Below are positions 23,239 to 25,251 of a stretch of DNA of 43,762 nt, in pieces. Position numbers and translations under genes: made by a program. Positions within the stretch are counted from its first letter, which is position 1, and each line of letters begins with the position of its first letter. The DNA is taken from NCBI GenBank assembly GCA_003141235.1, contig PLLL01000103.1, positions 272 through 44,033 of the forward strand, given 5' to 3'. Source of the DNA: Dehalococcoidia bacterium (GTDB lineage: Bacteria; Chloroflexota; Dehalococcoidia; Dehalococcoidales; RBG-16-60-22). Below the pieces are notes generated by a model that saw only the letters and a list, made by a program, of their open reading frames with translations, did not search any database and had not been told where the DNA came from.

Positions 23239-24546
23239 ATGAACTATCAGGAATCTTTAAAGTATCTGCTGCGCTTTGCCGATTACGAACGGATATCGCG
23301 CGCCGGCATCGTCTGGGACACCAAGCGCGTTGAAAGGCTGCTGGAAAAACTGGGCAATCCCCACCTCGCCGCCCGGACAGTGCATATCGCCGGGACAAAA
23401 GGGAAGGGAAGCACTTCGGCCATGATAGCTTCGATTCTGAAGCAGGCGGGCTATAAGGTCGGGCTTTATACCTCCCCCCACCTCCTTTCTTATACGGAGC
23501 GCATACGCGTCGGCGGGAAGCCCATCACCGAGGCGGAATGGGCCGGGCTGGTGGAGGAAATCCGCCCGCACGTCGAGGCGGTCAACGCTGAAGGCACATT
23601 GGGGGAGCTGACGACTTTCGAGCTATACACGGCGATGGCATTCGCCCATTTCCGCAATATCAAGGTTGATTACCAGGTGATGGAGGTGGGATTAGGGGGG
23701 AGGCTAGACGCAACGAATGTGGTCAAGCCGATGGTCTGCGTTATCACGTCCATCAGCTACGACCACATGGAAGTGCTGGGCAACACTTTAGCGAAGATTG
23801 CTACCGAGAAAGCGGGCATCGTTAAGCCGGGGGTGCCCGTCGTTACCGCGCCCCAGTTTCCCGAGGCGATGGACGCTATAGAGAAGGTTTGCCGGGAGCG
23901 CAGGGCGCAACTGGTCAAAGCGGGGCAGGACTTTAGCTGGAAAACGGGTAAATTTAACGAAAAGGGGCAGTCTTTCCATCTTAAGGGGCTGTTGGCGGAG
24001 TATGATTTGCGGATTCCGCTTTTGGGCGAGCACCAGGTAGAGAACGCCGCCAACGCCGTAGCCGCCGCCGAGCTTTTAGAGGGGATGGGGGCAAGTGTAG
24101 ATAAGAAAAGTATCGAAAAAGGACTGCAAAAGGTGGACTGGCCGGGGCGCTTACAGGTTTTACGGAAAAAGCCGTGGCTCGTTATTGACGGGGCGCATAA
24201 CGTCTACTCGATGCAGAAGCTGGGCGAGGCTTTAAAAAAGTACTTCAAATATGACCGGCTAATACTAATTTTGGGCTTTTCCGCCGATAAAGACGTGCCC
24301 GGCATGCTGGACGAGGCGGTAAAAATAACGAAGGATATCATCGTGGCGGCTTCAACCAGCCCGCGCTCGGCCAAACCCGCCGCTTTAGTGGAGGAGTTCG
24401 CTAACCGGGGGGTAAAGGCAAGGGCGGCGGATAGCGTGCCCGGCGCCTTAAAGCTGGCCTTAGCCGACGCGAAGCCCAACGACCTTATCTGCGCGACGGG
24501 GTCTATATTTCTGGTGGCGGAGGTAATGGAAGGAAATCCCCCTTAA
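23239..24546 (+). CDS. folC: Folylpolyglutamate / dihydrofolate synthase, 3' end altered by insertion
   Basis: This 435-residue Mur-ligase-type enzyme adds glutamate to folates, keeping tetrahydrofolate cofactors for the C1 pathway inside the cell. Motifs are the P-loop HIAGTKGKGSTSAMIASIL near residue 50, LYTSPHLLSYTERIRV near 75, SYDHMEVLGNTLAKIATEKAGI near 173 (cited as DHMEVLGNTL) and VIDGAHN near 315. AGGAG precedes the ATG. The last residues are AEVMEGNPP, where NPP and the stop come from an inserted element. At 25226 the string encoding AEVME reappears in frame, followed by GMKA and a stop, which I infer to be the original end. Only about four terminal residues differ, so the enzyme should work. 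Confidence 0.92.
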   Translation: MNYQESLKYLLRFADYERISRAGIVWDTKRVERLLEKLGNPHLAARTVHIAGTKGKGSTSAMIASILKQAGYKVGLYTSPHLLSYTERIRVGGKPITEAEWAGLVEEIRPHVEAVNAEGTLGELTTFELYTAMAFAHFRNIKVDYQVMEVGLGGRLDATNVVKPMVCVITSISYDHMEVLGNTLAKIATEKAGIVKPGVPVVTAPQFPEAMDAIEKVCRERRAQLVKAGQDFSWKTGKFNEKGQSFHLKGLLAEYDLRIPLLGEHQVENAANAVAAAELLEGMGASVDKKSIEKGLQKVDWPGRLQVLRKKPWLVIDGAHNVYSMQKLGEALKKYFKYDRLILILGFSADKDVPGMLDEAVKITKDIIVAASTSPRSAKPAALVEEFANRGVKARAADSVPGALKLALADAKPNDLICATGSIFLVAEVMEGNPP

Positions 24547-24732
24547 TCCCCCTTTTTCAAAGTGGGAGACAGGAAAAGGAGGGGAAAACCCTTTAATCCC
24601 CTTTTTCAAAGTGGGAGACAGGAAAGGGAGGGAGAAAACCCTTTAATCCCCTTTTTCAAAGTGGGAGACAGGAAAGGGAGGGAGAAAACCCTTTAATCCC
24701 CTTTTTCAAAGGGAGAGACAGGAAAAGGAGAA
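24541..24732. repeat. 50-bp tandem repeat, about 3.9 copies
   Basis: Units start at 24541, 24591, 24641 and 24691. Units 2 and 3 are identical over their length; units 1 and 4 differ at a few positions. Each contains AATCCCCTTTTTCAAAG, GTGGGAGACAGG and GGGAGG. The first unit contains the inner part of the left terminal repeat, and the last provides the ribosome site (GGAAAAGGAG) of the DUF559 gene. There are no unique spacers. Confidence 0.95.
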
Positions 24733-24738
24733 TCCTTT

Positions 24739-25143
24739 GTGGAAATATATGAACCGAAATTAAAACAGTCTTCCAGGCAGCTTAGAAATAACTCGACCGA
24801 TGCTGAAAGCTTACTCTGGGCAAAAATCAGGATGAGACAGCTTAACGGCTTTTTATTTTATCGTCAGAAACCTTTAGGGGGATATATTGCGGATTTTTAT
24901 TGCCCGAAGGCCAAGCTGGTAATAGAAGTTGACGGCGGCCAACATTTGACTCCGGATGCTATTGAAAATGACAGGGTCAGGGATGAGTATATGAAAAATA
25001 TCGGGTTAAAAACTCTAAGATTTACAAATATTGATGTAATAGAGAACATAAATGGGGTATTAGAGACAATTGAAAAATCCCTCTCCAACTCTCTCTTTGT
25101 AAAATCTCACCCTAACCCTCCCTTTTTCAAAGGGAGGGAATGA
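24739..25143 (+). CDS. DUF559 (Vsr/PD-(D/E)XK-like) endonuclease
   Basis: This 134-residue protein matches DUF559, a small nuclease family related to very-short-patch repair endonucleases. LRNNSTDAESLLWAKIR is the first helix, FLFYRQKPLGGYIADFYCPKAKLVIEVDGGQH holds the core (cited as GGYIADFYC and LVIEVDGGQH, with catalytic D and E-x-D and the following H), and DEYMKNIGLKTLRFTN is the closing part. The start is GTG at 24739, served by a ribosome site inside the last tandem repeat. The final residues NPPFFKGRE are encoded by an inverted-repeat hairpin, so the repeat forms part of the gene. It is more AT-rich than folC. It may cut DNA to move or amplify the surrounding repeat element; that role is inference. 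Confidence 0.85.
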   Translation: MEIYEPKLKQSSRQLRNNSTDAESLLWAKIRMRQLNGFLFYRQKPLGGYIADFYCPKAKLVIEVDGGQHLTPDAIENDRVRDEYMKNIGLKTLRFTNIDVIENINGVLETIEKSLSNSLFVKSHPNPPFFKGRE

Positions 25144-25251
25144 AATTGGGCGCCGGAAAAAGATTTTAACCTTTTCCCTTACCAGTTTCCCTCTTAGAAA
25201 AAGAGGAACCAAGGGAGATTTACCAGCGGAGGTAATGGAGGGGATGAAAGC

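Follow-up and report, generated by a model that had tools for sequence, protein, structure and literature searches.

DUF559/YcjD nucleases adjoin triplex repeats of matching type and are candidate partners of these repeats in bacterial genomes

Genes for DUF559 proteins are associated with C-rich/G-rich triplex repeats, the type of repeat matches the type of DUF559, and the number of repeat copies in a genome is linked to the presence of the nuclease gene. The preferred reading is that DUF559 acts as the partner nuclease of these repeats in a type-specific way, and our observations suggest that it recognizes a long-unexplained class of repeat and helps to spread or keep it. They center on a unit in the window, by which we mean the whole stretch of DNA that was analyzed, 43,762 nucleotides of contig PLLL01000103.1 from a Dehalococcoidia bacterium (Chloroflexota). 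Our judgment tips slightly toward this unit being a member of a two-part system, made up of a DUF559/YcjD PD-(D/E)XK nuclease and palindromes with a G-rich foot, with nuclease-driven copying included. To our knowledge, almost no function has been ascribed to the large DUF559 family, whose members are known solely as predicted nucleases related to Vsr, and the BoxC/PIT/triplex repeats, found in Escherichia coli since the 1990s and later in hundreds of genomes, have been given no enzyme, origin, or route of spreading.

A DUF559 unit at the 3' end of folC

The unit and its surroundings comprise the following features.

23239 to 24546, plus strand: folC as currently read, with Mur ligase domains; its last codons, GNPP-stop, are supplied by the inserted unit
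24517 to 24530, plus strand: left copy of the 14-bp direct repeat GCGGAGGTAATGGA, at the folC end (AEVME)
24534 to 25221, plus strand: whole unit, 688 bp, from the foot AAATCCCCC to GGGAGATTT
24534 to 24569, plus strand: left end, foot AAATCCCCCTTAAT plus palindrome CCCCCTTTTTCAAAGTGGG, T-type
24539 to 24730, plus strand: tandem array (TRF period 50, 3.8 copies), one T-type palindrome per unit
24739 to 25143, plus strand: DUF559 nuclease gene, 134 aa, GTG start
25106 to 25139, minus strand: triplex motif at the 3' end of the DUF559 gene, TCCCTCCCTTTGAAAAAGGGAGGGTTAGGGTGAG, with C-arm, G-arm, TTA loop, and third G strand
25189 to 25221, minus strand: right inverted end, reading AAATCTCCCTTGGTTCCTCTTTTTCTAAGAGGG on the minus strand
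25226 to 25239, plus strand: right copy of GCGGAGGTAATGGA, reading on as the original folC end, AEVME-GMKA-stop

The unit was placed within the final folC codons because relatives without it end in AEVMEEMGG-stop, AEVMEYMRKQA-stop, and the like (folC ends of 18 relatives). An earlier note on this DNA had read AEVME-GMKA-stop from the right repeat copy, and that reading was confirmed. The 14-bp direct repeat which the note had described around 695 bases was found as well, with 695 bp between its copies. Exact 14-mers repeated 300 to 1500 bp apart occur in four independent cases in the real window against a mean of 0.35 in block-shuffled windows, so the length of the direct repeat alone is not decisive; the weight of the evidence for an insertion in folC is the coding context, that is, the right copy restoring the folC frame. 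The inverted ends are present, although the 27 matches in 34 positions claimed for them became 26 of 34 in the register used here; a match of 27 was reached by 0 of 200,000 random positions. The claimed 50-bp tandem repeats correspond to the TRF array, the sole one in the whole window, and DNA folding of this array was no more stable than that of shuffles (z = -0.36). As also proposed, the ribosome site and the last codons (PFFKGRE) of the DUF559 gene consist of repeat DNA. An Rfam search gave chance miRNA matches only, all under the gathering scores.

A homologous unit in a second genome (G018) encodes a DUF559 protein with 77% identity and has the same ends, in other flanks and with no folC direct repeat. 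It still lies near ribD, and the two units may come from a common ancestral neighborhood. The 3' end of folC has the look of a hotspot for insertions. In relatives, a DUF559 unit lies directly past the folC stop in the opposite orientation (G022, L034), a duplicated folC tail flanks a small CopG-like ORF with no DUF559 (G002, L039), and another relative has a BrnT-like gene at the folC 3' end (L032).

Predicted fold of the DUF559 protein

The window protein matched PF04480 (DUF559) with 114.6 bits against a gathering cutoff of 20.6 (E = 2.6e-33). The one further domain match was a weak one to PF18741, and neither an HUH tyrosine transposase nor any other transposase-like domain was found in the protein. 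The DUF559 family alignment shows no variation at residues E23, D52, E63, D65, and H69. The best PDB fold match of an AlphaFold model (pLDDT 81, pTM 0.74) was 3hrl, an endonuclease-like protein from Neisseria gonorrhoeae, and the second best was 3r3p, the catalytic domain of the homing endonuclease I-Bth0305I (E = 3e-4), followed by AbaSI/PvuRts1I and Vsr. A sequence profile search also recovered 3hrl and 3r3p, the profile match to I-Bth0305I having an E value of 5e-6. Unrelated toxin chains in the structural library, with E above 0.3, were disregarded as chance, and PADLOC returned weak matches only, to DpdF and a type II enzyme. Caulobacter VsrA, the only experimentally studied DUF559 protein found in our literature search, sets off the SOS response if a methyltransferase is missing and has been interpreted as a mismatch repair nuclease (PMC12907096). 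In the Chloroflexota genomes G238, G200, and G290, among others, DUF559 domains of a different subfamily lie inside open frames of more than 900 aa, and in some of them a triplex palindrome lies immediately upstream of the domain.

The repeat motif and its types

The window's genome has five DUF559 genes, each with C-rich/G-rich palindromes on either side. The T-type in its simplest form is the hairpin CCCCCCTTTnnnAAAGGGGGG, three bases, and then GGGGGGATTT, and the simplest C-type is CCCTCTCCCnnnGGGAGAGGG, a short gap, and then GGGTGAGGG. The foot of the repeat is GGGGGATTT or GGGTGAGGG, with no GTAG or CGTC tag; CGTC-tagged REPs, which have no known transposase, were rejected as its identity, their tag being unlike this foot. 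Judged from its sequence, the unit's repeat is the known BoxC/PIT/intrastrand triplex motif, because a C-arm, a G-arm, and a third G strand are all present. That motif has been described in over 260 genomes; E. coli K-12 contains 23 copies, and triplex formation by the E. coli motif has been demonstrated in vitro (Holder et al., PMC4666352). The same 2015 paper states that no transposase or integrase remnants were ever found near the motif, and DUF559, ycjD, and endonuclease all go unmentioned in its text (PMC4666352).

Copies of the motif are numerous and scattered through a genome and, judging from a few E. coli copies whose position was examined, lie mainly in intergenic DNA. The window's genome contains 19 T palindromes against 0 in the backwards control. 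Another DUF559 group of the Chloroflexota (L147, L154, L158, and L162) has longer palindromes upstream, whose CCCCCAAAT or CCCCCATT arms may mark a third type of repeat.

Association and type-matching across phyla

A scan of contigs, with a query taken from the window's order, yielded 80 loci with DUF559, which represent about 20 phyla and lie mostly outside the window's phylum; 77 were used in flank tests, with ORFs on the same contigs as controls. A triplex motif was present in either flank of 64 of the 77 DUF559 genes and of 23 of 223 control ORFs (p = 1.6e-32), and in both flanks of 42 of 77 and 1 of 223, respectively. Hairpins on both sides were likewise more frequent at DUF559 genes (33/77) than at control ORFs (5/264, p = 1.7e-19). 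The association of motif and gene was seen again in a separate Chloroflexota sample, and the N. gonorrhoeae DUF559 gene has triplex-type repeats on both sides.

In a tree that comprised 94 DUF559 proteins and was weakly resolved (121 columns), the flank type switches between T and C only twice. Shuffling of the flank types gave a mean of 29.4 changes, and none of 500 shuffles went as low as 2. The T and C clades each include Chloroflexota, Pseudomonadota, and Myxococcota. In genomes with both paralogs (for example, G000, G011, G020, G022, G033, and several Lysobacter), each DUF559 gene adjoins its own repeat type. Type-matching on the tree would not by itself prove recognition, because a gene and its adjacent repeat are linked DNA. 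Indeed, repeats overlap the gene ends, and local linkage alone could make the flank type follow the tree, as would be expected if gene and repeats merely traveled or were inherited together with no functional tie. Against such passenger status stand the dispersed copies genome-wide, whose type agrees with that of the DUF559 present, and the separate types held by two paralogs in one genome; we consider it the least probable of the explanations weighed here.

The dispersed copies were counted genome by genome. T palindromes numbered 2 to 69 in all 16 genomes with a T-flanked DUF559 (backwards control, 0) and 0 or 1 in 11 of the 12 genomes with a C-flanked DUF559 (T- versus C-flanked, p = 4e-5). 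The exception, a Methylomonas with 11 T palindromes, belongs to a genus in which another species has a T-type DUF559. C palindromes reached 252, 116, and 60 in C-type genomes, and some occurred in T-type genomes too. Among 61 relatives at the family or order level, many of them incomplete drafts, the median number of T copies was 12 with DUF559 and 0 without (p = 1.2e-6). Two draft genomes in which DUF559 was not detected yet held repeats, 20 in G012 and 11 in G044.

Copy number in Lysobacter and E. coli

Where an intact DUF559 is absent, copies tend to be fewer in Lysobacter as well as in E. coli, a trend that covers few independent events. Lysobacter genomes with an intact T-type DUF559 contain 106 to 265 T copies, with the exception of G403, which has 6. 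One species in which the catalytic Glu is changed (IVGVDG for VIEVDG) has 60, two species with a T-type DUF559 pseudogene have 16 and 18, and five species with no T-type DUF559 have 0 or 1. In G401, the T-type DUF559 is missing from its slot, yet there are 138 copies. The Lysobacter tree holds three independent changes of DUF559 status, two of them concordant with copy number, and a sign test was not significant. Neighboring palindromes in Lysobacter formed 36 inverted and 6 direct pairs in 1.04 Mb, a count in which syntenic copies enter repeatedly. The DUF559 gene has one fixed genomic place in the genus; Lysobacter genomes without the T-type DUF559 were seen to have a GTAG-type REP pair, GTAGGAGCGGC, in that slot (L275 and L283).

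E. coli YcjD is a DUF559 protein (PRK09767/PF04480 family), encoded in K-12 between sapF and fabI and adjoined there by a copy of the BoxC/triplex motif. The gene is present in about 3,363 of 5,426 complete E. coli genomes. In an even sample of 60 records, the median number of BoxC places was 21 with ycjD (n = 37) and 4.5 without (n = 22, p = 1.9e-8); O157 strains without ycjD have about 15 copies. This difference offers a lead but falls short of a controlled test, because ycjD follows phylogroup, which puts few independent events behind the contrast, and because the sapF-fabI slot otherwise holds the efflux operon eefRABCD (L300, L298, and L299).

The copy numbers bear on the main rival explanation, in which DUF559 is a maintenance enzyme that cuts or repairs replication-stalling hairpins and triplexes while the repeats spread by other means. 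Such a role would suit the Vsr-like repair fold, the view of Caulobacter VsrA as a repair nuclease (PMC12907096), and the single-copy gene that keeps one location in Lysobacter and in E. coli, and type-matching is compatible with recognition that entails no movement. It does not, however, lead one to expect lower repeat numbers in genomes with a broken or missing gene, nor units that carry the gene and share their ends but lie in different flanks, as in the window and G018. We judge it unlikely, though it is the strongest of the alternatives.

Mobility and a proposed mechanism

The earlier note had described the unit as transposon-like, with its own inverted repeats. An ordinary unit of this kind, with DUF559 as the transposase acting on terminal inverted repeats and making target duplications, would fit the 14-bp duplication, the return of the folC frame at the right copy, the inverted ends, and the same unit ends in G018. 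Bracketing direct repeats of 16 bp and 25 bp also enclose the DUF559 units L074 and L089 and are possible target duplications of other lengths. However, brackets of at least 14 bp occur at only 8 of 93 DUF559 loci, with variable length and some of them within repeat units, which rules out target duplication as a general hallmark. The protein has no transposase-like domain, and the gene keeps a fixed place in many species. No clean empty site for dispersed copies was found in the Lysobacter pairs G394/G402 and G404/G409, where one difference proved to be a tandem duplication, or at three polymorphic E. coli BoxC loci compared between strains. Two of these E. coli slots hold REP/PU units in other strains, and at the third BoxC is shared and the neighboring REP block differs. 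The transposon reading thus did not generalize, and we regard it as quite improbable. The slots trmJ-iscR and ypfG-tkt (L321, L339 to L342; L324, L335, L336) contain BoxC or REP/PU depending on the strain, as if the two systems replaced each other at E. coli intergenic slots.

The other suggestion of the note, that DUF559 serves a repeat family much as RAYT serves REP, is strongly supported, well outside this window, by the flank enrichment in about 20 phyla, the type-matching, and the genome-wide copies. Its mobilizing part we infer only, because duplications are rare, the gene's place is fixed, and clean empty sites were not found. In the partner-nuclease reading, each DUF559 clade has its own palindrome type, beside the gene and dispersed in the genome, often as inverted pairs. 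In the most probable mechanism, the nuclease would recognize a hairpin or triplex extruded by a repeat of its own type and would nick or cut it; the break would be repaired from another repeat copy as the template, so that the repeat is copied or moved, and the gene might sometimes be carried along. The overall manner would be REP/RAYT-like, but with a homing-endonuclease-like enzyme. More tentatively, and with somewhat less than an even chance in our estimate, DUF559/YcjD and the triplex palindromes could constitute, next to REP-RAYT, another class of intragenomic replicator with an evolutionary origin of its own, present in most bacterial phyla, in which a homing-endonuclease-type enzyme copies structured repeats of its type by break repair and in this way shapes genome rearrangement. 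The DUF559 link supplies a specific candidate for the hotspots of rearrangement that have been reported at triplex repeats, and joining the two gives each a testable partner. E. coli K-12 has both YcjD and BoxC, which opens the question to laboratory work at once.

Comparison with known systems

The link between DUF559 and triplex repeats was not found in the DUF559, ycjD, or triplex literature, nor was any repeat partner of DUF559/YcjD reported there, in a search that left preprints and most subscription journals outside. The window protein is a clear member of DUF559/YcjD (PF04480, PRK09767). It resembles I-Bth0305I in both fold and profile; that enzyme is encoded by a mobile phage intron, whereas DUF559 genes are free-standing. 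The repeats share with BoxC/PIT/TM the same C-arm, G-arm, third G strand, and short loop, which is TTA or CCG in E. coli and TTA in the window copy, but the published description has no partner enzyme (PMC4666352). Like REP/REPIN-RAYT (TnpA_REP), the system has short dispersed palindromes, often in inverted doublets, and a type-specific partner nuclease gene that is flanked by palindromes, single copy, and fixed in place within a genus. Unlike RAYT, an HUH tyrosine transposase, the partner here is a PD-(D/E)XK DUF559 protein with an unrelated Vsr/homing-endonuclease fold, and its palindromes have a G-rich third strand as the foot in place of GTAG and CGTC tags. The nuclease family and the repeats were each already known separately; what is new here is the link between them.
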